Assembly: GCA_030998225.1 (NCBI GenBank)
Contig: JAPYXD010000679.1
Coordinates: forward strand, 682,001-746,000
Reading direction: 5' to 3'
Origin: Diplolepis rosae
Taxonomy: Eukaryota > Arthropoda > Insecta > Hymenoptera > Diplolepididae
Length of the DNA stretch: 64,000 bases
Shown: in pieces, positions 1 through 48,478 of the stretch
How the letters are laid out: the number at the start of each line of letters is the position of its first letter
Position numbering within the stretch: position 1 is the stretch's first letter
Position numbers and translations under genes: made by a program
Notes under the pieces: generated by a model
What the model was told of the DNA's origin: nothing
The model's database searches: none
What the model saw: only the letters and a program-made list of their open reading frames with translations

Positions 1-123
1 TCATGTGTGTTGGATTTTTTAGACCTTCCGTTGATATTATAATTGATGGAATTGAAGTGGACTTTGAAATATTTATTGTTGTTGTTGTATGATCGTTAGA
101 AGTGGATGCCAGTGGTTCTCGAT

Positions 124-1994
124 TTATGCTTTCCTCAGTGCACCCGTGCTGGGGAGAGCTTTGGAGTTTTCCTGATTAGCTGTTTGTGATTGGTTATTTG
201 GTCGTATCTTGCAGTCTCGTACTAAATGACCGGGTTGTTTACAGTAATTGCAAATTATTTCAGTATAATTTGAATTTTGTTGAGTGTCATTATTTTGTAA
301 AAATCTATTTTCATATGGTTTATTTCGATTTTGAAACTGTCCTGAGTTAAAGTTTTTATACTGTCCTGGATTCAATTGTCTATTAGTATTATTAACATTA
401 TTGTTATTATTGTAAACATTTCTAGGAAAATTATTATTATTGTTGTATCTTTGTTGTAAAAAATTATTATTATTGTTTCTATAATTGTTATTTCTATTTT
501 GTAAAAAATGATTGTTGTTATTATTAAAATTATAATTTTTATTTCTTAAAAAAATTGTTATTTGGAAAATTATTGTAATTGTTTTTTGCAAAATTATTAT
601 TATTATTACTTCTTTGACCATTGAAATTACTATATCCTTGTTGGTTAGGATGCAAAAATTTTTTTTGTTTATTGTTAAGAACTGCATCTTGAGCTTTACT
701 TAAATGAAAACATTTTTCAGTTGTGTGACCTGGTTTTTTACAAATTAAACAAATAGTTTTATTTTCAAGTGCTACGTTGAATCGGGTGGTTTTTATTACT
801 TTTATTATTATTAATTGATTCTTCGGTTTTTAAATAATCCGTATTTCTATTTCTTCGCAGTGAAGAAGATGCAGCCAGTCTTCGTTCTATGTCTATTGTA
901 TAATTAACTACTTCCTTAAATGTGTCCTTTTCTTCTACACGAATTTCTAACTCAGGACGCAAACCTCGTATAAAACATTGAATTACATCTCTTTCTAAAT
1001 TTTGTTTAAAAGCATTATCTACCTGACCGTCATTATTAAGTCTGTGAGCATCTTCTATTCTATCAGCAATTTCTTTAATTCTAGCAGCATAGGAAAGGAC
1101 ATTTTCTCTTTCCCACATAAATGTATTACCTAATTCTCCCTGCAATTGATATACGCTTTTCGCAGGGGCATATACTCTTTTCAATTTTTCTATTAATTCC
1201 TCTATTGTTGCATACGTTGACCCAAAAATACATTTTCGTGCCTCACCAGACAATTTACCTCTCAATAGACGTGCAAGATTTTCTTGGGCAGCAGGTGTCG
1301 GCAGCATTGCCTTTGCTTCCATGCAACCCTCAATAAAATGGGACAATGGGAGGTTACTTCCGTCGAACAAAGGGACCACCTCTAGCGCGTCGCGTAAGGA
1401 TACCTGCTGGCTGTTAGGTATGGCTACGGCCATCTCTTCGTTGCTTACTATTACGGGATTATCCTGATTTATGACTTCTGTATCGCTTTTGTCGTCGTCG
1501 CTATCGTTGTTACTAATTAGAGAGTCGCGTGCCAATGAGGTTTTCAATTTTTCTTTCAAAGTTTTGTTTTCTATTGTTATTACCGTTGAGCTTAGCAAAT
1601 TAGATTCGTCAAAATAAGATAATTCGTTCGTTAAAGTTTGATCTTGATTACTAGATCCTGTCACAATGCTTAAATCTTGACAAAAACTTGAATGAAACCC
1701 GCTAGTTTTACTGGAATTTTCACTTAATATGCTTTGATCATTAATTAGCGTCTTGTCAAAACGTGAATCGTCTAGCTGAAGAGTGTCATCTAATTCTTGT
1801 TCAGCAGGAAAAGGGTTTGAAATATCTTTGTATTTATTATCGACTAAATTTCCCTTGATTTTACCTGATCTTTTTAGTTTCAAGGAATCTATTTGATTCT
1901 GATCCACAATTTTTGCGAGTTGGTTATCTTGTTTGGCTTTACTACGTGTGATAACCTTTTGGGCGGATTCTACAGGGGTATTTGAATTTGACAT
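124..1994 (-). pseudogene. gag: Gag polyprotein, family A minus copy (frameshifted)
   Basis: Capsid/nucleocapsid precursor of a Ty3/gypsy element. From ATG at 1994 an open frame of 409 codons covers a charged N-terminal part and a Ty3-type capsid region (around DALEVVPLFDGSNLPLSHF). It shifts out of frame near 770, just before the first zinc knuckle. A second open segment (687-124) holds a long Asn-rich stretch, a CCHC knuckle beginning CNYCKQPGH, and the same C-terminal end as the plus copy (ALPSTGALRKA, then stop). At protein level it closely resembles the gag at 3945-5602 and keeps the first ~70 codons missing there. The frameshifts and mixed frames near 540-780 mean it is not functional as it stands. 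Confidence 0.85.
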
Positions 1995-3063
1995 TGAGTC
2001 ATTATAATTTTACAGTTTCCCTTTTATTGAGCGTTATCTTAGATTATTTATTGTTAATTATCAATTGTTTATAACAATTTTAAAAAACTACATGTAAAAT
2101 TTTGTTTGTTAATAAAGTGAAATTAGTAAAAGTATAATTTTAGTTTAAAACCAATCATAAAAATGATATTAATAATAATTATTTAATTATTTTTATTTGT
2201 TTATAACAAAATTAAAATTTGTACTCTTTTATTGGGAAATAAAATAACAAAATGAGAATATAATTCTATAAAACATTCAAATAAATAAATAATCGCTCAA
2301 ATTTTTTTGTAAAATTATAATGTTAAATAAAACATTTGTTAAAATTATAACAATATATATATATATGTATATTTATTTTGTACCAACCACGTGTGTCTTT
2401 TGTAAACTATAATAATCTATGTTATTAAATTAATAAATTATAAATTGTTTTTTTTTGTTTAAATAAATAAAATTGTTTATAACAAGGATCAGATAAGATT
2501 CGAGTTATGCACAATTTATTCTTCTCTAGACTGGACAAGTTAGGCTCAAGCTCAGATCCTTGGACAATCTTTGCAAATAAAAATATTCTGTTCCTTAGCA
2601 GAGTTAAAATCAAAGTTATAAACAATACAATCACAAGCACTTCGAACTTTGCCCTACCCAATGATCGTAATCAATGGTGACCGTTCAACGTACCCAAAAG
2701 GGACTTATACTCTCGTGTGCTGTTTTTTTTTTTGTTTGTTTTAACTTAAATCAAAACTTAGTTAACAAATTAGAATAATTTTTTAATAAGATAAGTTACT
2801 TAATCACTTAGGTTAGCCTCAAGGTCAGATCCCTGCGTGATTTTTCAAACTTATTTTATTTTATACAATTTATATAAATTATAAAATTTCAAAGAAATGA
2901 TTTGATTATTAAATCATTAAGGTTAGCCTCAAGGTCAAATCCCTTTGTGATCTAACAAATCTATTTTATTGAAATTTCAAGTTACAAGTTGAAATAATAT
3001 TTCATAATCATTTATTTATTCACTAGAAATAATCAATGCGTTAATTTTCAATTGACTTGTGTT
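1995..3063 (-). other. 5' untranslated leader of family A
   Basis: About 1.07 kb of AT-rich sequence between primer site and gag ATG, with no supportable ORF. It holds three direct copies of a ~23-nt motif (GTTAGCCTCAAGGTCAGATC on the plus strand) at 2539, 2812 and 2922. Repeats in gypsy leaders can be protein-binding or packaging sites, but nothing here proves that. Confidence 0.55.
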
Positions 3064-3080
3064 TCCCGGCCGATGCACCA
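3064..3080 (-). promoter_or_regulatory. Primer-binding site for tRNA-Gly(GCC)
   Basis: The plus-strand bases TCCCGGCCGATGCACCA are the 3' end of insect tRNA-Gly(GCC), including the CCA tail, so the minus-strand element RNA could anneal this tRNA to prime reverse transcription. It lies 14 nt from the inferred LTR edge, farther than the usual 0-5 nt. Confidence 0.85.
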
Positions 3081-3094
3081 GAAAAAAGGAAGTA

Positions 3095-3944
3095 TGTTAC
3101 GTCACAAATACGTAAATACTTACTTTGATCGAAGATTCCTCGTTTTAAGTTAGGATCGAATGATCCTCGCTTAGGGATGAGGATAAGTCAATGAAAGACA
3201 CAATGATTATGAAAATAATACAAATTGAATTTATTTTACTGGTTAAAATTTCCGGATATACATTCGTTAAGACAATTCTTATATAATGTAGGCACAGGCT
3301 GGTTGGTACGTAGGTGAGAAAGAGACAAAGAATAAAGATAGAGAGAGAGAGGTTCGGTACCTTTATGATTCGTAAGTTGTGTTGAGGTTTAATCCACACG
3401 GCGGTGAGTTGTAAGTACTGGATCCCCACAGGTGTATTCCAAGTGTGTGAGAGAGACGGAGTTATAGGCCGCACAGGTATATTCCGTAAAGGGCGGCGAT
3501 TCAAATTTACGACACTGTTCGAAGATCTTTACAAGATCTATTCAAGTCTACGATGACTTTTACGACTCCCGAACTTGGATTTTAAATTGTCCCAATCGAA
3601 TTTTATTAATCTCAAACTCAGAGATTTCCGAAGTTAAATTGAAATACCGCACTGGACTATTGTCGCGAGACCGGTTATAAATCCGAAGGAAAATTTAAGT
3701 GTCGAACTAGACGAAGAATTTACTGACTGCTTTCTCTTGGTGTGGGCCTCTTTTATATTTTTCTATACAAATTGACGGTCAGCGAAAATCGTGACGTAGT
3801 CATATCTTCTTAGAGGAGAAGGGGCCCTATACTGCTCCCTACTTCCCCTACTCCCTATTCCCCTTTATCGATTCTCTCATAGATTTCTAACTCAAACCAG
3901 CCTGTGTGTATTATATACATTCAAATACGTCGCGGGACGTGACA
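3095..3944 (-). repeat. 5' LTR of family A minus copy (850 bp)
   Basis: On the minus strand it begins TGTCACGTCCCGCGACG and ends GTGACGTAACA, a short imperfect terminal inverted repeat. It matches the 3' LTR at 18783-19598, strongly at both ends and in the R/U5 part but poorly in the middle of U3, so the two belong to different subfamilies. A GTAAGT splice-donor consensus lies in U5 (plus 3118-3123), conserved in the other LTR. Confidence 0.88.
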
Positions 3945-5602
3945 CACTCTTAAGTTAGATGATTCAAGTTTAGACAAGACTCTAATTAATAATCAAAATA
4001 TATCACGTGAAAATTCAGAAAAAACTAGCGGGTTTCATTCAAGTTTCTGTCCAGATTTAAGCATTGTAACAGGATCCAGTAATCAAGATCAAACTCTAAC
4101 GAATGAATTATCTTATTTTGACGAATTCAATTTGCTAAGCTCAACAGTAATAACAGCAGATAATAAAACTTTGAAAGAAAGATTGGAAACCTCATTGGCA
4201 CGCGAATCTATAATTAGTAACAACGATAGCGACGACGACAAAAGCGACACAGAAGCCATAAATCAGGATAATCCCGTAAGAGTAAATAACGAAGAGATGG
4301 CCGTGGTCATACCCAACAGCCAGCAGGTATCCTTACGCGACGCGCTAGAGGTGGTTCCATTGTTCGACGGAAGTAACCTCCCATTGTCACATTTTATTGA
4401 GGGTTGCATGGAGGCAAAGGCAATGCTACCGACACCTGCAGCTCAAGAAAACCTCGCAAGGCTATTAAGAGGTAAATTAACTGGAGAAGCCAGAAAATGC
4501 ATTTTTGGTTCTACTTATACAACAATAGAAGAATTGATAGAAAAATTGAAAAGAGTATATGCCCCTGCGAAAAGCGTGTACCAGTTACAGGGAGAATTAG
4601 GTAATACATTTATGTGGGAAAGAGAAAATGTACTTTCCTATGCTGCTAGGATAAAAGAAATTGCCGACAAAATCGAAGATGCTCACAGGCTCAATAATAA
4701 TGGTCAGGTAGATAATAATTTTAAAGTAAACCTCGAAAAAGACGTAATTCAATGTTTTATACGCGGTTTGCGTCCTGAGTTAGAAATTCGTGTTGAAGAA
4801 AAGGATACTTTTAAAGAAGTTATTAGCGACAGTATTGATATAGAACGAAGATTAGCTGCAAATTCCGCACTACGAAGAAATAAAAATGTGTATTATTCAA
4901 AAAGTGACGAATCATCTAATAATAAAAATAACAAAACAACCCGATTTAACGTAGCACTTGAAAACAAAACTATTTGTTTAATTTGTAAAAAAACCAGGTC
5001 ACACAACTGAAAAATGTTTTCATTTAAGTAAAGCTCAAGATGCAGTTTTTAATAATAAACAAAAAAATTTTTTGCGTCCTAACCAACAAGGATATAGTAA
5101 TTTCAATGGTCAAAGAAGTAATAATAATAATCATTTTGCAAGAAACAATTACAATAATTTTCCGAATAACAATTTTTTAAGAAATAAAAATTATAATTTT
5201 AATAACAATAACAATAATAATTTGCAAAATAGAAATAATAATTATAAAAACAATAATAATAATGTTTTACAACAAAGATACAACAATAATAATAATTTTC
5301 CTAGAAATTTTTACAATAATAACAATAATGTTAATAATAATAATAGACAATGGAATCCAGGACAGTATCAAAACTTTAACTTAGGACAGTCTCAAAATCG
5401 AAATAAACCATATGAATATAGGTTTTTACAAAATAATAATAATCAACAAAATTCAAATTATACTGAAGTAGTTTGCAATTATTGTAAAAAACCCGGTCAT
5501 TTAGTACGAGACTGCAAGATACGACCAAATAGCCAATCACAAACAGCTCATCAGGAAAACTCCAAAGCTCTCCCCAGCACGGGTGCACTGAGGAAAGCAT
5601 AA
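3945..5602 (+). pseudogene. gag: Gag polyprotein, family A plus copy (5'-truncated, frameshifted)
   Basis: The gag frame is open from the junction with the minus-strand LTR. It holds the capsid-like region, then a first zinc knuckle starting CLICKK that is broken by one extra A in the A-run near 4987-4994, giving a stop at 5008-5010. Downstream (5072-5602) are an Asn-rich linker of ~110 residues, a second knuckle with pattern C-x2-C-x4-H-x4-C (CNYCKKPGHLVRDC) and the C-terminus. The minus copy has six A where this one has seven, so the frameshift is probably copy-specific. pol follows in the -1 frame, open from about 5533. Two knuckles separated by a poly-Asn linker is unusual for Gag. Confidence 0.87.
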
Positions 5603-8600
5603 ATCGAGAACCACTAGCATCCACTTCTAACGATCATACAACAACAACAACAATAAATATTTCAAAGTCCACTTCAATTCCATCAATTATAATATCAACG
5701 GAAGGTTTAAAAAATCCAACACACATGATGATTGATACTGGTGCTGCTCGAAATTTAATTAAACAAAAGGTTCTCAACCCTGAAGTACCAATAAATAGGC
5801 ATAACGTATTGAAACTTACAGGAATTAATGATTTACCACTTTACACGTTAGGACAGGTAAAAATAAACATTTTTGGTTATCCAACGATATTTAACATTAT
5901 TCCGAATGAAGTCCCAGTAGAAGAAGATGGAGTATTAGGATCAGAATTTTTTCAAGATAATAGTGTGAATATAAACTATACTTCAAAATGCTTAGAAATT
6001 GAGAACCACTGTTACCCTTTTAAATCTACCAAATCATTTACTATTCCAGCTCGAACAGTTATAACATTTTATGTTAATATAAAAAATACAGAAAAGAGTG
6101 AAGGGTATGTACCTCGATTGCATATCCAAGATGGCGTCTACGTAGGTGACGCAGTTGTAAAAAATCACAAGGGAAAAGCCTATTTAAAATTTGCAAACAC
6201 AAATGAAATCCCAATTACATTATCCGTCCCATTAGTTAATTTAGAAGACTTTAAAGAACAAGAATGTTATAAACAAATTGAAAATTTAATTACTTTCAAA
6301 CAAACAAATAACGAAGATATATCAAGTAAAATATTAAATAACTTTTTAAAAACTGACAATTCTCTAATTAACTCATGCAAATTTTATAATGTAACAGACG
6401 AAGACAGAGTAGAATGTATTAAAAAACTTCTTCGATTAGACCACTTAAATCAAGATGAATATGAACATGTAGAAAAATTAATTAAAAATAATGCAGACAG
6501 ATTTCAAATCCCAGGAGAACCACTTGAAGCTACTAATGTATTACAACATTCAATTCCAACTGTAGATGACGCTCCAATTTTTTCAAGACAATATAGATTT
6601 CCCCCAGTTCACAAGGAAGAAATTACAAGACAAGTCGATGAATTATTAAAAAATAAAATAATCAAGCCCTCACAATCACCATATAACACTCCAGTGTGGA
6701 TAGTTCCTAAAAAACCTGATTCTCAAGGAAAAATAAAATGGAGAATGGTTCTTGATTTTCGTAAATTAAATGAAAAAACAATTGGCGATTCGTATCCTTT
6801 ACCTAATATAAACGATATACTTGATTCTTTAGGATCAGCAAAATATTTTTCAGTGTTTGATTTAGCTACCGGTTTTCACCATATAAAAATGAACCCAAAA
6901 GACTCACATAAAACCGCATTTTCTACACCTCACGGTCATTACGAATTCGATAGAATGCCTTTCGGTTTGAAAACAGCACCCGCCACATTTCAAAGATTAA
7001 TGGATTTAACATTAACTGGATTAATCGGAACAGAACTTTTTGTATATCTTGATGACATAGTTATATATGCAAATACTCTAGAAGAACACGAAATTAAATT
7101 CAACAATTTAGCAGAAAGACTTAGAAAAGCAAATCTTCATTTACAACCAGACAAATGCGAACTTTTACGACCTGAAGTAGGATATTTAGGTCATATAATT
7201 GATAAAAATGGAGTACGTCCAGATCCAAAAAAGATAATAGCTGTAAAAAACTTTCCAGTCTCAAAAACACAGATAAATGTTAAACAATTTTTAGGCTTAG
7301 CAGGATATTATAGACGATTTATTGATAGATTTTCAAAAATTTCAAGTCCTTTAAATCAACTTCTGAAAAAAGATACACCTTTTAATTGGACAGAAAAACA
7401 ACAAGCAGCTTTCGAAATTTTAAAAGCAAAATTATGTGAAGAACCACTTTTACGACGACCTGATTTTTCTCAACCTTTTATACTCACAACAGATGCCTCA
7501 GGATTTGCAATAGGAGGTATTTTATCACAAGGTAAAATAGGTAAAGATAAGCCAATAGCATATGCTTCACGTAGTCTAAGTGATACTGAGAAAAAATATG
7601 GTACATATGAGAAAGAAGCTCTTGCTATAATATTTTGTGTAACTCATTTTCATCCTTATTTGTATGGGGGAAAATTTACTTTAGTGACTGATCACAAACC
7701 TCTAGTTTGGTTTCAAAATTCTAAAGACCCTTGTTCACGAGTTTCACGTTGGAGATTGAAACTCGCAGAATATGATTTTGATGTAATTTACAAAGCTGGG
7801 AAAATGAATGTAAATGCAGACGCTCTCTCAAGAAACCCTATTGATGATAACAAAGAGAAATCAAGATATTTACAAGTTGACGCCAATGATACTTTTATGA
7901 CTTCCCAAGAAAAAATGTTTTCCAAGAAAACTTTTACAAGAAAAAAACAAGAAAACTCTAAAAATGAATATTTTCCGGAATTCCTTAGTGAAGAATCACT
8001 CAGTGAGATTGGTAAGAATATTTTAAAATACACAAATTTATTCAAAAATATGGCTTCAAGACTTATTTTTATGACAATATTTTTATTAAGTCCAGTGTTT
8101 TCCAAAAAATACGAAAATTTATCATGGAAAATTCGATTTTTTTTTTCTTCGTAAAAAATCGATTTGAATCGAAACGAAACTCAAGAAAAATTAGACGAAA
8201 ATTTTTCTTCTAAACCTCTTATGAAAAAACCACGAGGTAGGCCAAGAAAAAATCTACTTACAAATTTGAAAAATATTCCCTCTCAAACAAAAAGAAAGAG
8301 AGGTAGGCCAAGAAAACAAATGTTTGAAAACGAATTACCAGAAATAAATGTGCAAAAGGGAAGCCGAACAAAAGTAGAATCAGATTCCGACTCTGATTCT
8401 GATTATTTAGATTATTTGAAACAAACTCAAGCAAAAAATAAAAAGAAGAAGAATGCCAAGAAGCCAAAAAATATTAATGAATTTGAAAGTGAAGAAAGTG
8501 AGAATTATTTTTCAACCTCAGAAGATGAAATCAACGACATTGAAACCTCACACGAAGGAAATGATGGAGAAAATTATGAAGAAAATTGGGAAGAGAATTT

Positions 8601-10371
8601 TGAAGATGATCTTGAAGACGATTTTGAAAAGAATTTCGAACAGAATTTTGAAGAAAATTTTGAAGACAATCTTGAGGAAAATTTTGAAGAGAAGTTTGAA
8701 GAAAACCAAGATGAAAAATTGGAAGAAGAATTTGAAGAGCTTTATTTTGAAGAAAATTTGAGATTAAACCGAAGATCTCAAATAAATCCTGGAAAAATCG
8801 ATAAAGATCATGATAATTATAATCGTCCACCCCCAGAACCTCCTCCTATAAACTCTCAAACAGAAAAAATTATAACAAAGAAAAATTTAGTTGAATGTCG
8901 CGATCAATTAACTATGCGAAAAGATAATTATGCATATTTTGTTACAACAAATGGAACTCCTCGCGACAACGGATCAAAAACTTTAGAAAAACGTGAAACT
9001 TTACCAAAATTTAAAAATTTACAAAAGGGGATAGCAAAAGAGATTAAAAAAGGAAACTACTACCATTTTGCACTTCCAATTGAAGAAGAAACTAAAGATA
9101 ATTTATCTGAAACTTTAAATAATATAAAATTATCAATTAATTCATTACATGAATTATCTCAAAAATTTAAATTACGATCTATTAGTATATCAAAAACTTC
9201 CAGAATTAATCATATACCTTGGGAAGAAGTGAAATCAATTTTCGATTCAATTTTTTCAAATTCAACTACAAAAATTATAGTTTGCAATGGAATAACGCAA
9301 TATCCAACAAAGGAACAACGAACTCATTTAATTGAAGAAGCTCATTCTTCAGCATTAGGAGGCCATAAAGGCGTTACAAAAACTTATAGCCGAATTCGCC
9401 AAAAATTTTTTTGGGAAAATATGAAAGTAGACATTCAAAAATATATTCAAGGCTGTTTACAATGTCAACTGAAAAAATTAATCAGAGTCAAAACAAAACA
9501 CCCTATGGTAATCACTGACACACCCACTACTGCTTTTGAAAAAATATCAATGGACATTGTTGGTCCACTACCTGAAACAAAATCTGGTAACTTATATATT
9601 CTAACGATACAAGACAATTTTACCAAATATTCTTTAGCAATACCTCTTCCTAATCACCAAGCTAGTACGATAGCAGATGCTTTCGTGAAAAAATTTATTT
9701 GCATATTTGGATCACCGAAAGGAGTACTTACTGACCAAGGCAGAGATTTTTTAAGTAATTTATTAAAAAGATTGGCAAAACGTTTTAGAATTAAACAATT
9801 TCATACCACAGCATTTCACCCTCAATCAAACGGGTCATTAGAACGTTCACATCATGTTTTAGGAGAATATCTCAAACAATTTGTTGCAAAAAATTCAGAA
9901 TGAGATGATTGGCTTGAACTAGCAATGTTCTCATATAATACTAGTGTACATGAAGGCACAAAATGAATGGAATTTGTTGAATATGAATTGGTTTTTGGTA
10001 AACTAGCTCGTGAACCTTCCAGTGAACCTTTATCACAACAAGAAAAATTACAAACATATGACGATTATTTAATTAATTTCGTAACACAACTACATGAAAT
10101 GCGAACACAAGCAAGAGAAAATCTTATTTCAGCAAAAGAAAAATCGAAATTATATTATGACAAAAAAATAAGTCCTTTAGAAGTAAAAATTGGAGATTAC
10201 GTGTTTTTATTAAAAGGAGGTAAAATTAAAAAACTTGACAGCCATTGTACAGGGCCTTATGAAATATTGAAAGTGTTAGGAAAAGGGAATGTCAAAATAA
10301 GCTATAAAGGCAAACCTACTGTTGTCCACATTAATAGACTAAAACGCTCACATGTGCAAGTACAAAAGTAA
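5533..10371 (+). pseudogene. pol: Pol polyprotein with AT-hook/acidic insertion (three in-frame stops)
   Basis: One continuous frame interrupted by TAA 8152-8154, TGA 9901-9903 and TGA 9964-9966. Counting from ATG 5725: protease active site DTGA at residues 4-7; reverse transcriptase with YLDD at 441-444; RNase H with TTDAS near 589 and VTDHK near 655, ending ADALSRNP. Instead of the usual ~100-residue spacer there are ~490 codons before integrase: a hydrophobic stretch (MASRLIFMTIFLLSPVF), two AT-hooks (RGRPRK), a Ser/Asp block and an acidic repeat of the type ENFEDDLEDD. Integrase follows with an HHCC zinc site (HSSALGGH, CLQC) and D-D-E residues (MDIVG, TDQGRD, LERSHH), then a C-terminal domain ending near 10371. 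Not active as it stands. Confidence 0.92.
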
Positions 10372-10592
10372 ATAAATAAAAATAGAAACAAAATATCTGT
10401 ACCTTAATTATAAAAAAAATATATATATATTTATATATATACATATACAACTTAAATAAGATATAGAAATTTTATTTTGTCGATAAATAGTAAAAATATA
10501 AAAAATAAAATTTTTTTTTTATGAAAATATATGTTTTATATATAAATTAAAAAAATATATAAAACAAAATAAAAATGAATTTTCAGACATAA
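10372..10592 (+). other. AT-rich non-coding spacer with branch/acceptor sequence
   Basis: Very AT-rich sequence between pol and the CARD ORF. No ORF. It ends in two candidate 3' splice sites, TTTTCAG at 10580-10586 and TTATTCCAG at 10597-10605. Confidence 0.5.
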
Positions 10593-10892
10593 CACATTAT
10601 TCCAGATATAATAGAACAAATTCATCGCAAACGCATAGATGATCTCATTGAAATAGTTCCCTGTTTTATCGACATGGTAGCTCTCTGGCCATACTTAATT
10701 CAAACTGGAATTTTTAAGAAAGACGACTGTAATATCCCCACATGGAACAGAAATCTAAACAATCCAGAAATAATAAAAGACATTTTTTCAACAATCAAAA
10801 CAAGAGGACCGGACGCATACAAAAATTTAATTCTCAGTTTACGGCTATCAAATCACATTGTCATAGCCGACATGTTGGATATAATGAACTAG
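10593..10892 (+). CDS. CARD-domain-like protein
   Basis: About 100 open codons after TAA at 10590; the first ATG in frame is at 10674, giving 72 residues. The pattern fits a caspase-recruitment domain: amphipathic helices, a 'GIFKKDDCNI' turn, and a last third (TRGPDAYKNLILSLR, then IADML) that resembles the C-terminal helices of insect initiator-caspase (Dronc-type) CARDs. Helix 1 of the fold lies upstream of ATG 10674 (PDIIEQIHRK). The start may therefore come from splicing at 10605, a non-AUG codon or a lost ATG. CARD proteins bind other CARDs in apoptosome complexes, so a retroelement copy could act as a decoy inhibitor. That role is inference. The out-of-frame open stretch starting at 10742 belongs to the env frame. 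Confidence 0.62.
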   Translation, partial: HIIPDIIEQIHRKRIDDLIEIVPCFIDMVALWPYLIQTGIFKKDDCNIPTWNRNLNNPEIIKDIFSTIKTRGPDAYKNLILSLRLSNHIVIADMLDIMN

Positions 10893-10996
10893 GAACGCAA
10901 AATACAAAAATTAAATCAATAACTTCAGAAATATACATATGTAATGATAAAACATTTTCCTATTCTTATATTACAAAGCAAGCTGCTAATTGGAAC

Positions 10997-11009
10997 CCCC
11001 TTTTTCCAG
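10997..11009 (+). promoter_or_regulatory. 3' splice site before env1
   Basis: The run CCCCCTTTTTCCAG ends at 11009, two bases before the env ATG at 11012. A pyrimidine tract plus CAG directly before a start codon is what a spliced subgenomic env mRNA needs. Confidence 0.65.
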
Positions 11010-11011
11010 AG

Positions 11012-13042
11012 ATGGGATTACGAGGCTTCCTTTTGGCACTGCTCACTTGCAACCTCATCTATATAACAACAGTCTACGCCATCATAGGATTCGATTGCGG
11101 TTCAAATCAATCAAATATTACGACATTATCTTTACTAGAGGTAGGAGAATGTGATCTACCTCGATCTCAAGTACATGTTGAAAGAACTTATATACAACTT
11201 TTACAATTAACTGGATTTTCAAATACAAAAGTAATACAATGCAAAATAGAAATTCGACGCGCTATCTCTCATTGTGGTATGCATTCTCACAGTTCCATAG
11301 TAGCAAATGGTCACAGTGAATATATACATGATGTTACACGATATCAATGTAATCAAATGCACACAATAGGAACATTTTTAGTAACCCCTTCTCTTCAGAT
11401 GTCAAAGTTAAAAGTAAACGAAACTTCATTTCATAGCGTTACTTTAGCAGGTTCTGTAACACCTAACGGAGACTGTACTGGTACACAATTTTCTGACCCA
11501 TATGGAACATGGAATAATGTCGTAGTCCAAGCAATATTCAAAATAACTTTACAAAAACATTACGCGACTATTCATCTAAATTCAAATAAAATTCAATTAG
11601 GATCTGGAATAATATGCACACTTTCAGACACATTCTGTACAGACGTAGAATATGGGCAAACATTATGGGATACATTACCTAATGACGTATGTAATTTTAA
11701 CAAATATGAAATTATTTATGAAGGACCAGCAAATAAAACATATGACAACACGACAGACAATTCTGAAACCTTTTATTCTTTAACGACTGAAGATATAACC
11801 TTCGTACTGGCTGAAAAAACAAGAAAACCAGTTTGCAGTTACGTTTTAATACAAACTGAGCATCCAAAATTATTAATTTTTTAAACCAGACCTGGGAATT
11901 CATTTTTAGAAAATAAACATTTAGAAGTTCAAAATATGGACATTTTCACATACGTCAATTCTAAATTTATATATGTAGAACGACACATACGCACTGAAGT
12001 AAATAGACTTTGTCACGATGTTCTTACTCAACGATGCATACTTGAACAGCAAGTTTTTAGAAATACATTAACCTTAGCAACCCAATCGCCAGACGAATTT
12101 GCATATCATTTAATGAAAGGCCCAGGATATATGTCAGTAATTGCAGGAGAAGTAGTACATATCGTAAAATGTATACCGGTTGAAGTAAAATATCGCAAAA
12201 CTGAAGAATGTTATCTACAACTACCAATATTTAGAGGAAAGCAATCCTTTTTCCTTTCTCCACGAACTCATATATTAACAAAATCAGGTATCCAAACAAA
12301 TTGCAATTCTTTCCTTTCACCAATGTACCTTTTTGGAGAAACCTGGTACAAATTACTTCCAAATCCTGTCGAATCCATAGCACCAACTACAGTAAAACCT
12401 CTCACAAAAGCAACCGGGAAATACACAAATCCTTCATCCTTAGCAACAAGTGGCATTTATTCTCAATCTGATCTTGATAAACTGCGAGATCATATTATGT
12501 TTCCAGCAGAAAAACCAATGATTCTAAATTCTTTAGCTAGAGAAATAACAGGACATCCAACTATTAATCAAGGAATATCATTAACGAATTTATTTAATGA
12601 AGATGTAATTGATAAAATTGCTGAATCCGCATGGGGTAGATTTTGGACAATTTTTACAAGTTTTGGAACTACTAGTGCAGGCCTAATTGGATTAATAATA
12701 ATAATTAGAGGGATTAAATTGATAGCTGATACCATTATTCATGGATATGCGCTACACAGATTATTTGGATGGTCTCTCCATCTACTAGGCGCCTTCTGGG
12801 ATTCGGTCACTAACCTCTTATTACACTTAGGTACCCATCGACCTCCTGGACCTCCTGCTGAGAGTCATCAAGAACTGCTAACAGCTTCAGCGCCACAAAG
12901 CTCAAAAGAGGCACCTAAAAGTCCTTCGTATTACGCAAATACTACTTCAGGTAAAGATCACAATAATACAAACACAACTCTTTATCCTCACTCTGAACTA
13001 AAAGAAGAACTTAGTAGAACCCACTACTCTATCCAAATCTAA
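11012..13042 (+). pseudogene. env: Envelope glycoprotein 1, chuvirus-like (one internal stop)
   Basis: A 676-codon frame from ATG 11012, broken by TAA at 11882-11884 (codon 291). The N-terminus is a signal peptide (MGLRGFLLALL..., about residues 1-23). The ectodomain is Cys-rich with several N-glycosylation sequons (NITT, NETS, NKTY). Near residues 553-571 is a transmembrane stretch (GLIGLIIIIRG), then a second hydrophobic helix, a Pro-rich tail and a long polar cytoplasmic end. The ectodomain (GECDLP, YIQLLQL, CGMHSH, then MKGPGYM and SGIYSQSDLDKLRDHIMFP) looks like glycoproteins of chuviruses and related negative-strand arthropod viruses, not like the F-type env usual in gypsy. It would mediate attachment and membrane fusion. 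Identity rests on recalled family resemblance. Confidence 0.72.
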
Positions 13043-13051
13043 CATCTTCAG
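13043..13051 (+). promoter_or_regulatory. 3' splice site before dsRBD gene 1
   Basis: CATCTTCAG ends at 13051, one base before ATG 13053, and the env1 stop is only 10 bp upstream, so translation probably depends on splicing. Confidence 0.55.
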
Positions 13052-13052
13052 A

Positions 13053-13790
13053 ATGTCGCATGTTCCTTTTACAACCTTACTAAACAAAATTATTCAACAA
13101 AGAGGAGATCCACCCCTCATTTATGAGATACTCATTGAACAAACCAATAATAATGAATGTCTATTTCACGTTAATTTACAATGTAAAAATTATATAATAA
13201 TGAATAGTGGCAAAGATAAAGAAAATGTAAAGCAAAAGGTAGCACAAAATTTATATAATGCCTTAATTAATGAATCAAAGGAAACAAATCAAAACGTCCA
13301 ACCAAACTCTATTAGTAAAAATTGCAAAAAATTAAACGAAATTTGCACTGAAAATAAATTTGAGTATCCAAAATATACAGTATTACGATTAAAAACCTCA
13401 TCAAAAGACTCAACATACATAGCAATTTGTTTCATTAATAACATTAAACAAATAGGAATAGCAAACTCAATAAAAACAGCTAAGGATTTTGCTGCCATAA
13501 AAGTTATTAATTCTCTTTCGCATAAAGACGAGAAATGTGAACTACGTTAGATAAACTCACTAGAACATTTGCATGTAACAATTCAAGAATCATCTATAAA
13601 CGATCCAAAACCTTCAACGAGTAGCCAAATAACAAAACCTATTACTTCAAATAACAATCGTGAAAAAAATACAAATTCATATAAAATGAAAACAAATAAT
13701 AATCATACTGCATCATCTTTCTCTGCGAAAAGCTTTAAAAAATGTTTTAAATGCGGATATAGACCTCCCAACCAGTACAATAAATTCTAA
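13053..13790 (+). pseudogene. Double-stranded-RNA-binding protein 1 (two dsRBDs, one stop)
   Basis: A 245-codon frame with an internal TAG at 13548-13550. The first 165 residues hold two domains with the dsRBD pattern. One is at about residues 5-72 (LLNKIIQQRGDPPLIYEI ... VKQKVAQNLYNAL); the other is at about 89-154 (LNEICTENKFEYPKYTV ... AKDFAAIKVINSL). After the stop the same frame continues as a Ser/Thr/Asn-rich linker and the start of a zinc knuckle (KKCFKCG) that lacks its second half. Such proteins bind dsRNA without sequence preference; viral ones often suppress RNA interference. The neighbouring genes at 13897 and 17922 share the dsRBD-plus-knuckle layout, which points to duplication inside the element. 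Confidence 0.68.
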
Positions 13791-13896
13791 TATAAACATT
13801 CCATACCGATTCAGGAAATCAACTGCAATCGAGCATTACTACGACGAGCCTACACACGTACCAAGTTACCCAAAAAAGAAATACAGAACAGACTCC

Positions 13897-14412
13897 ATGG
13901 GATTTTTAAATCATGTAGAAATTTTAAGAATCTTCACGATAAAATATGGACTGCCGTTACCGCAATATACAGTCTATCCTGATCCGAATTCGAAAACAAA
14001 CTCATTTTTTCTCGCACAAATTAATATAAATGAACATTTCGTTATACAAGCCGGCCCTACTAGTGAATTAGCAGAAAATAGAGCAGCTTTAAAATTATTA
14101 TTGCTACTAATAAGATCATACGATCTCTGCGACGAAAAATTTTATAATAATGATGATAAAAAAAGGCAAAAAACCAAAAATCAAAGTATTCAAACCGATC
14201 CAAGACCAAAATTAATACCTTGGGAAAATTCCTGTAGATTTTGTAACACTCAAATGCATGCTACAAAAGAGTGCCGTAGACGAAATATTTTTAAAGTAGA
14301 CAAATCAACCCAATTTCCCCCTCCAGTTCCACCAAGAAACTCCTCAACATTTAGTAGACTTTTTTCCCCTTTTCTCCAAAAAACTTCTAGACCTAAATCC
14401 AACCATATGTAA
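13897..14412 (+). CDS. Double-stranded-RNA-binding protein 2 with zinc knuckle
   Basis: Intact 171-residue ORF. Residues 5-70 fit a dsRBD (EILRIFTIKYGLPLPQYTV, AQININ, then AENRAALKLLLLL). A CCHC zinc knuckle follows (C113, C116, H121, C126), then a Pro-rich stretch (PPPVPPR, 141-147) and a basic C-terminus. The basic KKxAK patch of strong dsRNA binders is replaced by TSELAENRAA, so affinity may be low. ATG 13897 is preceded by a CAG at 13812-13814 after a pyrimidine-containing run, with no ATG between, compatible with a spliced mRNA. A role in RNA binding or silencing suppression is inferred. Confidence 0.62.
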   Translation: MGFLNHVEILRIFTIKYGLPLPQYTVYPDPNSKTNSFFLAQININEHFVIQAGPTSELAENRAALKLLLLLIRSYDLCDEKFYNNDDKKRQKTKNQSIQTDPRPKLIPWENSCRFCNTQMHATKECRRRNIFKVDKSTQFPPPVPPRNSSTFSRLFSPFLQKTSRPKSNHM

Positions 14413-14442
14413 ACATCCTATTTTATCCAATATTAATCCTAC

Positions 14443-14455
14443 TTTTCTTTTTCAG
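14443..14455 (+). promoter_or_regulatory. 3' splice site before env2
   Basis: A strong polypyrimidine tract ending in CAG (TTTTCTTTTTCAG) at 14455, 16 bp before ATG 14472. It is the best acceptor match in the element. Confidence 0.7.
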
Positions 14456-14471
14456 CCTTCCGAGAAGCCTA

Positions 14472-16244
14472 ATGAATTTCCTTAATCAACTAGCATCCAG
14501 AGTGTATTTAATTTTAATTCCACTCCTTTTCTCCAAAGCAGAAAAATACTTCATAGACTCACAATTTTCTCATTCTTCAGGGATTTATTTTGAACCAATT
14601 TCAAAAGTTCGTCTTTTTTCTGAAAAATATCATTTTATATCTTATATCGATATCTTTCAGCCAGACGTACTTAAATACAAAATAATAGATTTCTCACATA
14701 AATTATATGAATATTGCATACTCTCAAATATTGCCAATAATTGTAATTTATACGATCATCAGACACAACTTGATTTTATAGAACAACGCATCAACTATTT
14801 TCTTGAAGAAATATCATTTATATCTAGACAAGCTCGTAATATCACGAATATTTCTAACACTAATGATCCATTCTTGCAACAGATACAAAAAGTACTTTTA
14901 GAATTAAGAATGAGAAATGAAACCTCCCTTTACTGGCCCAAAGAAAATTTATTTCTACTTCCTAATCCATATTTCCAAAAAGTTACAAATCTTTCTTCAA
15001 AACTTGACAACATTATGACCTAGAAAAAATGGCATAATTCTCAAAAAGATCCAAATATTCACCTATATCGAATATTAGCAGCAAATTGGCTTAAAGACCT
15101 GCATGAAATTTCTCAATCTTTTCTTTTACTCCTTGACCAACTTACAGAAGCTATTACCCATGCCGCAACTAATTTATGGCACCCTATGCTACTTCCTGAT
15201 ACCTTCTTAGACTTCAAATCCAACAAAGAAGACCCACACCTTTCAACATCCCTTTTTTCTATTGTCCTTCCATTTTCTAAAATACAATACTTCTTATTCG
15301 ATAAGTACTTGATTTTTATTATGACTATACCAATCCCATCTGCTGAAGAATTTCAATTATTTAAACCACATCCAATTCCAATACATCTCGATTTTAATAC
15401 TGACGCAATTTCCTCTATTTACATAAAACCTCAAAATTCTTATCTCGCTATTTCTTCAAATAACCAATCATACTTTATAACAAATGAAAATTTCCTCAAT
15501 GCATGTTATCAAAATGGATTCCAAACATTTTGTCACCCACCAAGATCTATATCTAACATCGATAACAATCCTATTTGTGAAACATCAATGTTTCTAAATT
15601 CTCAACCATACAAGTGTAAAATATTCATCAGTTTTAGTGAATATCCCTTTCTAACACCATTGCAATTTCATCATGGATGGCTATACTCAACAATTTTCCC
15701 CCGACAAATTTTCTTATCATGTCGAAAAAACTCTAAACACTCCAAGGAATAGGAATTTTGCAAACAAAATCAGGTTGCAATCTAGATTCATCAACTCCAT
15801 ATTACCATCTTCAAAACCATTTGAATATAATGGATAATTCAATTCCAGTCAGCAAATCAACTACTTCCCTTGCTATAATTTCACCATTTTTATATAATAT
15901 TTCCATTCAAGAGCCTCACTTACTAAAAAAGGTATTACTTCTTCTTCAGAAAAAAGAAGACATGCCATTATCAATCTTCGAAAACCATGTCTTTATCCTT
16001 ACAAAATATGCAAAAATTCAAAAAAATCATTCCATCAATTTTTATTTCTAGTGCACATAAATTAACATTAGCACTAATCTTTATCACTTTACTTATGATT
16101 ACAATTTTAGGATTATTACTATTGAAAATTCAAAAAATATCTAAAAAAATAAACAAAACGCCAACACGTATAGAACTTATACAAAAAACTCCTTTAAGCT
16201 CAGTGACAAAACCTTTACTGACCGACTTGACGTTTAACTTTTGA
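14472..16244 (+). pseudogene. env: Envelope 2, baculovirus-F/errantivirus-like (stop and frameshifts)
   Basis: A second, unrelated envelope frame. It starts with a signal-peptide-like segment (RVYLILIPLLF) followed by SGIYFEP and IDIFQ, features seen near the N-terminus of insect gypsy F-like envelopes. TAG at 15021-15023 interrupts it; the same frame reopens and runs to 15752, including a HAATNLWHPMLLP segment of the type that follows the fusion peptide in F proteins. A shift near 15725-15750 moves the GIGILQTKSGC motif into another frame, and a second shift near 15990 returns to the first frame, where a transmembrane helix lies (LALIFITLLMITILGLLLL, about 16065-16125). Family assignment rests on motif order. 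Confidence 0.66.
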
Positions 16245-16581
16245 CCTTTCCTTTATTCCATCTTTCACCCTTTTCTTTAATAGACTTTAAGTCAATTCAC
16301 AAAATTTTTCAGATACAGGTACATTCCGTCCTTACCTTTCTCAAAACCACATGCATGAACGTCCTATACCGTCAGAAGGACAGTTTTTGTACCCACGTCT
16401 TTAATGTTTCTTACTAAAGGAAAAACAAACTCTAATATAAAAGTTGTTTTTCTGACGGAAAGTAAAATACCTTTAGCAAAATCTTTTACCTTGCATGATT
16501 AGAAAATATATTTAAAAAGTTATTTTTCAATCTCCTTATCAGACCTTAATAAAATAAATCTATTCAAACAATTTGTAGAAA
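16245..16581 (+). other. Pyrimidine-rich spacer with splice signals
   Basis: No ORF. The stretch holds TTTTTCAG near 16306-16313, closely followed by CAGGTACA, and ends in ATTTGTAG (16571-16578), three bases before ATG 16582. It reads like an intron leading to the next gene. Confidence 0.45.
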
Positions 16582-16989
16582 ATGATACCAACTCCAAGTG
16601 AACCTATTGTTAACCATCTTGGACCAGTAGACGGTGTATGTCCGCAAGACTATCCGATAGCATACGCGCACTTATTACAGAGTTATTGCTTCGAATTAGA
16701 ACCCTCAACATTGTTTTTATATTATAATCACCGAACCACAAAAAGATATTGCCAATTCTGTTTCGAGAAATTAGATCAAGAAACTCAAAATAACTGTGAA
16801 TTTTTTACTTCATGGCATTCCATTTGTAAATTGGAATGCATATATATGAATTGTTACGGCTGTCAAGAACTATTAATTACTCCGCGAAAAAAAGCAGCTG
16901 ATTGTAGAGAATGTATCGAACAATATTTAAATTATAAATTCGAAATTAGCCAAGGAAACGAAATTCAAGTAGAAAATACCCCTGCATGA
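16582..16989 (+). CDS. Cysteine-rich putative zinc-binding protein 1
   Basis: Intact 135-residue ORF with no family I recognise. Cysteines form C57-x2-C60, C72, C82, C86, C91-x2-C94 and C108-x2-C111, enough for two zinc sites. The next gene has the same layout, including exactly 13 residues between its last two CxxC pairs, so the two are paralogues. The N-terminus is Pro-rich and there is no signal peptide or membrane segment, so a cytosolic or nuclear protein is likely. A CAG/TAG acceptor just upstream suggests expression from a spliced mRNA. It could be a regulatory or host-interaction factor. Confidence 0.62.
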   Translation: MIPTPSEPIVNHLGPVDGVCPQDYPIAYAHLLQSYCFELEPSTLFLYYNHRTTKRYCQFCFEKLDQETQNNCEFFTSWHSICKLECIYMNCYGCQELLITPRKKAADCRECIEQYLNYKFEISQGNEIQVENTPA

Positions 16990-17112
16990 TTATACGTATC
17001 TACCTTCCACGCATGTAATCACGCATGAAAAATTTTGTTAAATTTAATAAAATCCTTAATACTAAAAAATTGTAAATTTTGCAAATATTTCAAATTCCTT
17101 AAATATTGTAAA

Positions 17113-17124
17113 TTTCTCCAACAG
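17113..17124 (+). promoter_or_regulatory. 3' splice site before cysteine-rich gene 2
   Basis: TTCTCCAACAG ends at 17124, four bases before ATG 17129. Confidence 0.55.
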
Positions 17125-17128
17125 AAAA

Positions 17129-17557
17129 ATGCTGCCCCAAGAAATCGAAACAATCGAAGCAGAAGAAGTTCGAGCAAGCGAGCAGGATGTTCAGCCATAT
17201 TTTGAAAATCAATTATGGTCAGAATACTGCTGCACAACCCTGGTCGAGAATTTTTACATGAATGTTCTCGAAAAAAAACTTGTTTGCGAGGATTGTTGGA
17301 TGACAGAACTCAGCTTTTTCGAAACCGAAGTAACATTACCCGTCCGAATAGACCACATAGTTACTAAAGACTTATATTGTACATTAAAACTATCTAGCCT
17401 CGACTGCTCCATTTGCAATACACAAATTTTTTACATGCGGCAAAGAGCAGATTTATGTGTAACTTGTGCCGAACGTATAATTCATTTATACCAACAAGAA
17501 GCACTGTATAACGACGTCGATTCCGAAGCATCGACTATTATTTATAACGACGAATAA
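17129..17557 (+). CDS. Cysteine-rich putative zinc-binding protein 2
   Basis: Intact 142-residue ORF, paralogue of the preceding gene. C53-x2-C56, C84, C93-x2-C96 and C110-x2-C113 keep the spacing of the other protein (27 versus 25 residues to the single Cys; 13 residues between the last pairs in both). Outside the cysteines the sequences differ strongly, so the duplication is old while the fold has apparently been kept. Both ends are acidic (IEAEEVRASEQD; DVDSEAS). No known family could be named. Confidence 0.62.
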   Translation: MLPQEIETIEAEEVRASEQDVQPYFENQLWSEYCCTTLVENFYMNVLEKKLVCEDCWMTELSFFETEVTLPVRIDHIVTKDLYCTLKLSSLDCSICNTQIFYMRQRADLCVTCAERIIHLYQQEALYNDVDSEASTIIYNDE

Positions 17558-17898
17558 AAATAATAAATCAAAACATATTTTTTTATTATTCTTTTTTCTA
17601 AATATAAACAATATCTATTAGTAACTTTTGTTAAAAAATTTTCCCTTTTAATTTTTTATTCGTTGTTTAAAATCATATTTCATATACACCACTACTTCTT
17701 CCTTAACCGCTATAATGTAACGACAAACCTTAATAAATTAAAATATTCTTAAAAACGGACAACTGTTTTCTCTGCATGAAATATCTCTTTGAGTTAGGAA
17801 ACGCGGAAAGTGAATATATCAACAAACACAAAATTATTACAAAAAAAAAACTAACTAACTTTAGAATTTCAATAAATTCAATCATCAACTCAAACAGG
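17558..17898 (+). other. Spacer, no gene seen
   Basis: AT-rich sequence between two accessory ORFs with no supportable coding frame. Probably intronic or untranslated. Confidence 0.4.
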
Positions 17899-17912
17899 TA
17901 ATTCTTTTGCAG
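17899..17912 (+). promoter_or_regulatory. 3' splice site before dsRBD gene 3
   Basis: TAATTCTTTTGCAG ends at 17912, nine bases before ATG 17922. It decides the start: a longer frame from a TTG at 17907 would begin inside the acceptor. Confidence 0.65.
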
Positions 17913-17921
17913 ATCAAAACA

Positions 17922-18371
17922 ATGGCCTTGCAGACAAGAGACCTATCGAAAGGCACTGCTGTACAAGTTTTAAACGAGATAAGCATTGAGTATGATTTCT
18001 CCGAACCCTCATATACTGTAAAATCGCTTGGAAAACACCAAGAACTGCCACCGTTCCAAGCAACTTGCGAAATTTTTAAAAATAAAATAACTTTTTCTTG
18101 TATTGGGGAACCAGCCCCTCAAAAAAAGTCTGCAAAGCAAAATGCAGCATCTAAACTCTTGGAAATGCTTTCCACAAGATATGTACTTTTAGAAGAAATG
18201 AAAGAAAAAAGCTTAATCCCAGAAACGAGAATTTTCAAAATAAGTGATGAAATCAGTAAAGAAACCTTGCAAAAATGGACCAACTCTTGTGAAAGGTGTT
18301 TTCAAAGAGGGCATTTAGCTCATAACTGCCGCAACCCTTTACGTAATAGAAAATATAAAAATAATTCTTGA
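17922..18371 (+). CDS. Double-stranded-RNA-binding protein 3 with zinc knuckle
   Basis: Intact 149-residue ORF, the clearest dsRBD in the window. Residues 11-83 run from the VQVLNEI helix through EPSYTV, CEIF and FSCIGEP to KKSAKQNAASKLLEML; the KKxAKxxAA signature at 68-76 carries the basic residues that contact dsRNA. A CCHC knuckle follows (C123, C126, H131, C136; CERCFQRGHLAHNC) and a basic tail. A start at 17922, after the splice acceptor, is preferred. It is likely a nucleic-acid-binding accessory protein. Suppression of host RNA silencing is the obvious hypothesis; RNA packaging is an alternative because of the Gag-like knuckle. Confidence 0.78.
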   Translation: MALQTRDLSKGTAVQVLNEISIEYDFSEPSYTVKSLGKHQELPPFQATCEIFKNKITFSCIGEPAPQKKSAKQNAASKLLEMLSTRYVLLEEMKEKSLIPETRIFKISDEISKETLQKWTNSCERCFQRGHLAHNCRNPLRNRKYKNNS

Positions 18372-18771
18372 AAAAAAAAATAAATAAAAAAAATTTTTTT
18401 TACGTTTAATATTATGGCATGATATAATTTACGAATATGAAATAAAAATTATTGATGTATTTAGTTATTAACAAAAAAATCATATGTAACCTTATGTTAA
18501 GTTCATACTATTTCAAAAAACTATGTAATTATTTATAACAAAAAATTATTATATTAAGATAATATAAATTTTAATGACATCCAAAAAGAAATGGTCGATA
18601 TTGAAATGTATCAAATAGTAGAATACAAATTGTAAAACAGACGCAGAAATGAATGTTATATTTTGTTACTATATCAGAAAAAGAATTTGAATGTATCGCT
18701 TCAAAAACATTAACGAATGTATTCTTCTTCCGAAGATTCGATCGCGGATGCTTCACCCCCGCGCTCGAACT
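18372..18771 (+). other. 3' untranslated region of the giant element
   Basis: AT-rich, no coding frame, leading to the polypurine tract. Confidence 0.55.
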
Positions 18772-18782
18772 AGGGGGGGAGG
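18772..18782 (+). promoter_or_regulatory. Polypurine tract
   Basis: A purine run (A, seven G, A, two G) directly before the LTR start TGTCACG, the plus-strand DNA primer of LTR elements. Confidence 0.85.
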
Positions 18783-19284
18783 TGTCACGTCCCGCGACGC
18801 ATTCGAATGTACTATAGGCACAGGCTAGGTCTAGAGAGAAATCTGGGGAAATTACTAAAAGAGAGAGAAAACCACCTATTGAAAAGAGAGGTATAACTAC
18901 GTCACACGCAGCGGGAGACTGCGCAACGCGTGACGTCACCAAAAAATATAATATAAAAAGGACACACCGCCAAGGGAAAACTAGTCTTGTGAGCAGTATT
19001 TAAGTGCGGGATTTTCTAAAAAACTAAAAGGGATTCTCAGCGTGAGACAATTATACCGTGCAGTTTGACAGTGTAAAGACCCGAGAGTCATAAATTTACC
19101 GTGGTCCGTTTTTCAATCCTTGAAAGGATCCTAGACTCAGTGCCAAAAAGAGTGAATAGTTGTTGTGTCCTTGTCACACCTGTGGATATTCACTCCTTCG
19201 CAGTCACACCTGTGGGAATCGCATCGCAGTCATACCTGTGAGGAACATTTAAATAAACAAAGGGAAATCATAAAGGTACCGAAC

Positions 19285-19372
<88 letters not shown>

Positions 19373-19598
19373 TGTCTCTTTCCAACCAACCAGCCTGTGC
19401 CTCCAATTATAAATCAATTGTATCGACAATTAAATATTTTCAATTTATAATTATTTTAATAAATTCAATTTTTATTATTTGATAATCATTGTGTCTTTTC
19501 ATTGACTTATCCTCATCCCTAAGCGAGGATCATTCGATCCTAACTTAAAACGAGGAATCTTCGATCAAAGTAAGTATTTACGTACTTGTGACGTAACA
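18783..19598 (+). repeat. 3' LTR of the giant family A element (816 bp)
   Basis: Begins TGTCACGTCCCGCGACG and ends GTGACGTAACA, like the LTR at 3095-3944. U3 differs, while R/U5 (around 19380-19598) is highly similar. GTAAGT at 19570-19575 is a perfect splice donor in U5. The right edge is confirmed by the flanking repeat. Confidence 0.9.
19289..19370 (+). repeat. (CT)n(AT)n microsatellite inside the LTR
   Basis: About 48 bp of CT followed by about 35 bp of AT. The same LTR position in the minus copy has only a short interrupted CT run, so this tract expanded in this copy. Confidence 0.9.
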
Positions 19599-20285
19599 TA
19601 TGTGAGATACAAAAAAAACGTTTGGATGGAAAATTGTTTGCCTGAATGAAGTCTACAAATTCTCATTTAGATATTTCGGGACAGTATGTATATTTTATGT
19701 TTTGATTTTTGATATTAAAAAAATTCGATTTTTTTCACCAAAATATGTGAGATACGAAATAGGCGTTGTTCTGTTTTTTCTTTTTGAGAGATTTGGAAGA
19801 AGATAAATTATTTTAATCATGTAATTTATTAAAAAGTTACTGAAATGTATACAGAAAATCGAGCGCGAAGCGCGAGCGCCATGATGAGAATGTGTTCCTT
19901 AAGGCTGATAGAGCCTTAAGTAAATTGAATTTCCTGTTTCACTTAAACTGAAAAAGAAACTTAGTGAATTTGAGAAAATGACTAATTTACATCATCTTTA
20001 ATATCATTAAATTTGTTTGAGCTTCAGTATTAAATTATAAGAGATTGAATTTCCTGTTTCACTCAAACTGAAAAAGAAACTTAGTGAATTTGAGAAAATT
20101 ACCAATTTACATTATCTTTAATATCATTAAATTGGTTTGAGCTTCAGTATTAAATTATAAGAAATAAACTTAAACGTATGCGAAGAGCACAAGAACAAGC
20201 GCGAAGCGCGAGGTCCAGAAAGAACGTAGCGCGAAGCGCGCGATGAGAATGTGCCCGCGAAGCGGGCACATTTTTTCTATATACT
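19599..20285 (+). repeat. Interspersed repeat copy A with GAA-loop hairpins
   Basis: No gene. It starts with diverged 155-bp-type units (ATATGTGAGATAC motifs) and continues with hairpins GCGCGAAGCGC near 19870, 20200 and 20230 and the perfect 8-bp-stem hairpin GTGCCCGC-GAA-GCGGGCAC at 20251-20269 followed by six T. The same order recurs at 25720-26680. Confidence 0.7.
19924..20163 (+). repeat. Two 120-bp tandem repeats
   Basis: ATTGAATTTCCTGTTTCACT starts at 19924 and again at 20044. The two units differ at only a few positions. Confidence 0.9.
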
Positions 20286-30914: not shown

Positions 30915-30979
30915 GTGAGGAGGAAAAATGGCAAAATCTTTTATAGACGTTGTACAGGACTCTCCTAGGACGGGTCTAG

Positions 30980-45143: not shown

Positions 45144-45176
45144 GTCTATGTCTTCGATAAATAAATTGCTGGTTAG

Positions 45177-48440: not shown

Positions 48441-48478
48441 AAGATATGCTCTTGATCAAAGAATTTTAATTTTGTAGA

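Follow-up and report, generated by a model that had tools for sequence, protein, structure and literature searches.

Complex retroviruses (lenti-, delta- and spumaviruses) carry accessory genes 3' of pol. For Ty3/gypsy elements with an envelope, the customary reading is gag-pol-env. The errantiviruses (gypsy, ZAM, tirant; Metaviridae) combine a Ty3/gypsy gag-pol and TG...CA long terminal repeats (LTRs) with a single F-type env gene 3' of pol, whose furin site and fusion peptide are kept, as far as the available part of their description goes (PMC12992720). In Anakin, a mosquito BEL/Pao element, a chuvirus-type glycoprotein was captured as env, and the excerpted account describes no additional genes (PMC7642597); extracts of another paper name Errantivirus and Anakin as elements that captured baculovirus and chuvirus envelopes (PMC12440569). 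The accessible portion of one source reports no clear capture by Gypsy elements (PMC10084718). Some mosquito gypsy regions bear type III glycoproteins common to RNA viruses, and the available text on them mentions no second env, CARD or double-stranded RNA-binding domain (dsRBD) gene (Chary et al. 2026, PMC13172572). Finally, elements of the MDG1 group have selected accessory frames, sORF1 and sORF2; according to the excerpts, these are two small frames 5' of gag that encode different proteins from those described below, in elements without env (PMC11952523). Here we describe a Ty3/gypsy endogenous retrovirus of Diplolepis rosae that carries two envelope-type genes and six further genes behind pol. 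It lies in a 64,000-nucleotide stretch (contig JAPYXD010000679.1, positions 682,001 to 746,000, or C351:682001-746000), hereafter the window.

The element shares with errantiviruses its gag-pol, its LTR type and an F-type env 3' of pol, with Anakin a captured chuvirus-type env, and with the MDG1 group the possession of selected accessory frames. It differs from errantiviruses in its second, chuvirus-type env, in its six more genes and in an F-like env without conserved furin site; from Anakin in a pol whose domain matches are of Ty3/gypsy type; and from the mosquito gypsy regions in that a second env, a CARD gene and dsRBD genes are all present. The likeness to complex retroviruses is one of outline, with accessory genes that lie behind pol and probably target host defence; the element's pol, envelopes and accessory proteins appear to have a separate origin, and we claim no membership. 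A literature search for gypsy elements with two env genes, or with dsRBD or CARD genes, found none, the survey of Chary and Hayashi 2025, likeliest to hold relatives, being outside that search. Gypsy elements with type III glycoproteins are already in print; two envelopes together with this accessory set were not met in the portions of the literature searched.

That the element is real, and no artefact, is close to certain, and its reading as one complex, envelope-bearing Ty3/gypsy endogenous retrovirus with the anatomy of Table 1 seems to us practically beyond doubt. The gene order is LTR - gag/pol - CARD - chuvirus-type env (chuEnv) - dsRBD1 - dsRBD2/knuckle - F-like env - Cys1 - Cys2 - dsRBD3/knuckle - polypurine tract - LTR, in a plus-strand provirus of about 17.5 kb without its insert. 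An earlier note, made from the letters of the window, had delimited the element at 3945 and 19598. The right end stands; the left position is the point of interruption by a sibling provirus, and the true start is at C351:666339. There, in a piece of the contig to the left of the window (L043, C351:665501-670500), we recovered the partner 5' LTR that the note had expected, preceded by TATG and followed by the primer site, the leader and the start of gag. The gene block is thereby enclosed by an LTR pair (9 mismatches and 30 gap columns in 818) and a target duplication, and the polypurine tract and LTR predicted behind the accessory genes are in place. TG...CA LTRs, polypurine tract, primer site and 4-bp target duplication are all as in Ty3/gypsy elements. 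The same TGG-led primer site, which we take to fit tRNA-Gly, lies behind the 5' LTRs of both plus provirus and sibling; a tRNA scan of the window found none.

The sibling is a minus-strand element with CACT on either flank, extending from L043:2737 to window position 3944; hence the plus element was struck in gag by a second provirus. It spans 17.7 kb and was read at its two ends. Its own LTRs are nearly identical (Table 1); it is young, and by its sequence it belongs to a sister sublineage: where aligned, LTR (78-87% alike), leader (68-93%), gag start (73%) and dsRBD3 (79%) diverge from the plus element by 7-32%, and we rejected the view of the two as copies of one subfamily. The note's match between the 3' LTR and the LTR linked to the sibling gag survives as an alignable likeness, but the latter LTR is that of the sister sublineage.

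Pol is ordinary Ty3/gypsy, as first read. Pfam finds RVT_1, RT_RNaseH, Integrase_H2C2, rve and Integrase_p58_C, in this order, giving the arrangement reverse transcriptase - RNase H - integrase with Ty3-type domains. In this domain scan the BEL-specific model is absent among the matches, and the RNase H domain closely follows reverse transcriptase and fits Ty3-type models. In main-family copies, the pol frame starts 70 nt before the end of gag, in the -1 frame relative to it. Between the RNase H and integrase domains there is a long acidic repeat-like stretch (8164-8900), preceded by two RGRPRK-type AT-hook motifs recognized by eye (Pfam AT_hook 13.3 bits, under cut-off).

The window also holds the nested sibling and other repeats, and one could envision a chance pile of nested insertions, with an ordinary gag-pol element and unrelated fragments behind it. 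Other copies in the genome (758 Mb in 428 contigs) bear on this directly. From 13315 first-look candidates, a search with pol scored 56 places; one is that of the window itself, and the other 55 have 95-97% identity. The 9.9 kb behind pol were read in 12 of the 56, where genes were sought by BLAST of window pieces. CARD and chuEnv were present in all 12 stretches, none of which ends right after pol. All eight accessory genes, each at least partly, were followed by the LTR in one fixed order in nine, in agreement with the earlier count of at least eight further frames; among these nine, blastn missed the strongly diverged Cys2 of L031, which shows up as an open frame, and L033 and L042 have a partial Cys2 or Cys1. 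The remaining three would suit a chance pile, L032 having an internal deletion, L036 being interrupted with its end outside the stretch, and L040 being truncated behind chuEnv. Main-family genes are mostly 96-100% identical to the window (the LTR and the sequence before it vary more, to 83%), and L031 is a sister lineage, 70-94% identical; one more copy, L044, was too decayed for gene comparison. In the window copy gag, pol, chuEnv, dsRBD1 and F-like env are disrupted and CARD and dsRBD2 have lost their start codons, but each gene broken there has full-length frames in other copies. Approximately full-length open frames were counted in 11 of the 12 stretches for CARD, 10 for dsRBD1, 7 each for chuEnv, dsRBD2, Cys2 and dsRBD3, and 6 each for F env and Cys1, with L031 and L040 scored as chuEnv misses although long frames remain.

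Cys1 occurs in at least 150 places in the genome (1136 candidates), 133 of those listed being stop-free. By position it lies behind at least 34 of the 56 pol copies, 27 of these 34 at 10.9-11.05 kb; the figure is a lower bound because five of the 22 misses (L031, L033, L036, L037, L042) carry Cys1 sequence by BLAST. On short contigs of other public assemblies, relatives were found for dsRBD3 (73 of 96 candidates), the Cys pair (100 of 248) and CARD (52 of 53); the source of some of them may be this species itself or a sister species. We rejected the chance composite, on the shared gene order in copies, the LTRs with their target duplication and the position of Cys1; the purifying selection described below also speaks against it, as does a second family in which CARD and chuEnv recur with their order kept, and we regard it as scarcely conceivable.

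No gene is intact in all 12 stretches, as would be expected if the accessory genes were functionless passengers captured by an active gag-pol. Ratios of nonsynonymous to synonymous divergence (dN/dS) between the main family and L031 argue otherwise: CARD 0.25 (codon-bootstrap upper limit 0.71), chuEnv, in part, 0.17 (0.24), dsRBD1 0.28 (0.45), dsRBD2 0.12 (0.21), F env 0.13 (0.18), Cys1 0.14 (0.29; its lower limit comes from saturated replicates) and dsRBD3 0.13 (0.23). No ratio is claimed for Cys2, as its synonymous sites are saturated. These values show that at least seven of the accessory genes are under purifying selection. Gene lengths are also fixed, full-length dsRBD3 relatives in other assemblies keeping 149 aa down to 62% identity, and we consider the passenger explanation very improbable.

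Between the window family and L031, dS climbs along the accessory block (10742-18371) from 0.20 (CARD, chuEnv) through 0.69 (dsRBD2) and 1.2 (F env) to 1.9 (Cys1), about tenfold from chuEnv to Cys1. For this reason we infer that the sublineages are mosaic, the part from pol to dsRBD1 having probably been swapped recently by template switching. The family has also been active recently: the LTRs of the sibling differ by a single mismatch and the copies of the second family are 99.7-99.85% alike.

Both envelope genes proposed in the earlier note are borne out by Pfam. Monjiviricetes_fusion matches two pieces of the window's chuEnv (1.2e-97 and 4.5e-130) and, in an intact copy, positions 6-649 of the 653 of the profile, at 824 bits, so that the domain is full-length. 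The true start of the protein (MGLRGF...), with a likely signal peptide, probably lies about 90 residues into the frame. Stop-free chuEnv occurs at 62 of 68 listed places in the genome (2274 candidates). A PDB search with chuEnv returned glutathione transferase rows alone (E 0.02), and IMG/VR scans with its second half and with dsRBD3 confirmed no relative. Baculo_F likewise matches two pieces of the window's F-like env (1.1e-22 in an intact copy). Many other elements in the genome, at least 72 listed (2166 candidates), bear ordinary, higher-scoring F-type envs of 134-172 bits.

The F-like protein retains a hydrophobic, signal-like start and a transmembrane segment. It has no conserved furin site, since its sole RXXR (RQAR) corresponds to RQAH in the sister copy, and nothing resembling a fusion peptide comes after RQAR; the furin site and fusion peptide of errantiviral envelopes are thus not found in it. 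In group I alphabaculoviruses, an F homologue without furin site persists and GP64 does the fusion, as the available sections of that work state (PMC4864199); these are large DNA viruses and serve as a parallel only. Given the missing furin site and this precedent, the chuvirus-type env is probably the fusogen. Alternatively both envelopes might fuse, each for a different cell type or route, for instance soma-to-germline or between hosts. Purifying selection on both genes and the signal-like start or transmembrane segment they keep would agree with this, but the state of the F-like cleavage region does not, and we find it rather unlikely.

The CARD-like frame is also upheld. Pfam CARD is found at E <=0.1 in 17 of 26 aligned relatives; the window's own sequence is under the cut-off, the main family scoring 15.5 bits against a cut-off of 23.9 and a second family 30.9. 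The predicted structure is a six-helix bundle whose best structural matches are CARDs, with Foldseek E never <=0.001 and the caution due to helical bundles. A single-sequence PDB search gave one designed protein only. That second family, which is diverged from the main one but shares its genome, has integrase, CARD and chuvirus-type env in the same order (Table 1), and env stands directly behind CARD at at least four more places in the genome listings. Three further CARD matches above cut-off (C284:24095373, C269:1375024, C356:1068946) may belong to the host or to additional viral lineages. As an apoptosome-type domain carried by a retroelement, the CARD would be out of the ordinary.

The dsRBD frames, with and without knuckle, are present as the note had them. 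Against a Pfam cut-off of 23 bits, dsRBD1 (45.5) and dsRBD3 (29.9) score above and dsRBD2 (20.8) below; the two dsRBD stretches of dsRBD1 are read at a loose threshold. The CCHC knuckle is found by Pfam after dsRBD3 and by eye after dsRBD2, and the two proteins are homologous across dsRBD and knuckle (E 3.4e-6). They might serve the virus's own RNA, in packaging, reverse transcription or the export of unspliced RNA, rather than suppress RNA interference (RNAi). The nucleocapsid-like knuckles favor such a role, as does the need of a multi-gene genome to export unspliced RNA, as in complex retroviruses. The closest solved structures, however, are RNAi proteins, Loquacious for dsRBD1 (E 0.0047) and plant Dicer for dsRBD3 (E 0.003); the argument is weak because most solved dsRBDs are of RNAi type. 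On balance we judge the own-RNA role unlikely, if less so than fusion by both envelopes.

Cys1 fits no family: in PDB and Pfam, any one family is touched by one or two of 22 members (best E 0.0073), and its fold prediction is uninformative (pLDDT 35). The earlier description of Cys1 and Cys2 as paralogues was not borne out; their likeness (E 0.004 for one pair, profile probability 4%) is too weak, and we did not accept them as proven paralogues.

Table 1. Features of the provirus and related elements. Positions are those of the window unless a contig (C) or locus (L) is given; aa, amino acids.
Feature	Position	Strand	Remarks
Provirus, right part (gag remainder to 3' LTR)	3945..19598	+	LTR pair; TATG on both sides; interrupted by sibling with CACT on both sides
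Provirus, left part (5' LTR, leader, gag start)	L043:839-2736 = C351:666339-668236	+	LTR pair; TATG
gag remainder with CCHC knuckle, broken frame	3945..5602	+	single frame in other copies
pol (reverse transcriptase, RNase H, integrase), three open pieces	5725..10371	+	
CARD gene, start codon lost	10611..10892	+	93 aa in family
Chuvirus-type (Monjiviricetes_fusion) env, one in-frame stop	10742..13042	+	up to 766 aa in other copies
dsRBD1, two dsRBD stretches, cut short	13053..13550	+	245 aa in other copies
dsRBD2 + knuckle, open frame without start codon	13690..14412	+	194 aa in other copies
F-like (Baculo_F) env, broken	14472..16244	+	about 593 aa in other copies, transmembrane segment near end
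Cys1, CxxC-rich	16582..16989	+	135 aa; fits no known family
Cys2, CxxC-rich	17129..17557	+	142 aa; no family above cut-off
dsRBD3 + CCHC knuckle	17922..18371	+	149 aa
Polypurine tract, immediately 5' of 3' LTR	18772..18782	+	
3' LTR, TG...CA	18783..19598	+	
Target duplication TATG	19599..19602	+	partner L043:835-838
Sibling provirus, 5' part, nested in gag of plus element	1..3944	-	full span C351:668237-685944
Sibling 5' LTR	3095..3944	-	1 mismatch in 849 vs own 3' LTR at L043:2737-3586
Second-family copies	L045-L047; C358:1649178-1651503, C350:4006001-4008326, C347:166314-168639, C410:2518587-2520819		

Elsewhere in the window lie two inverted Ty3/gypsy copies of another family (44628-50660, minus strand, and 56623-60858, plus strand), 94-97% alike; between their integrase and the one of L045, in the second family, identity is 33%. 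Fragments resembling a non-LTR retrotransposon (endonuclease, reverse transcriptase, CCHC gag) were noted by eye in a GC-rich stretch at 30965-33962 on the minus strand.

We think it fairly probable that the locus as a whole is best explained as a complex, envelope-bearing Ty3/gypsy endogenous retrovirus whose proteins divide the work as follows; the particular set of roles, drawn from domains, selection and parallels, is more tentative, and we would put it slightly short of an even chance. Gag and Pol would build and integrate the particle, and the class III chuvirus-type glycoprotein would act as fusogen. The F-like protein, having lost its cleavage site, may be retained as a non-fusing surface protein, as F is in group I baculoviruses with GP64. 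The CARD protein could be a decoy that binds an apoptosome of the Dark/Dronc type and so makes an infected cell die later. The dsRBD proteins would cover double-stranded RNA and blunt Dicer/small interfering RNA silencing, and their knuckles may in addition help to package RNA. Cys1 and Cys2 are putative zinc-binding regulators, and expression would presumably proceed by splicing.

It is tempting to see here an independent invention of the complex-retrovirus lifestyle within Ty3/gypsy, joining a class III fusogen and a de-fused F, a CARD apoptosome decoy and three dsRNA-binding anti-RNAi proteins in a recently active family, with the CARD-env core in at least two deeply split families; we hold this proposition to be evenly balanced. 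On the strength of this element, retroviruses of the complex, host-manipulating kind seem to have originated outside the vertebrate retrovirus family as well. If so, the arms races fought with accessory genes over apoptosis and RNAi would not be special to vertebrate retroviruses. The element also opens to experiment the question of what a virus gains from retaining two envelope proteins, and that of whether suppressors of small-RNA defence are encoded by retroelements themselves.

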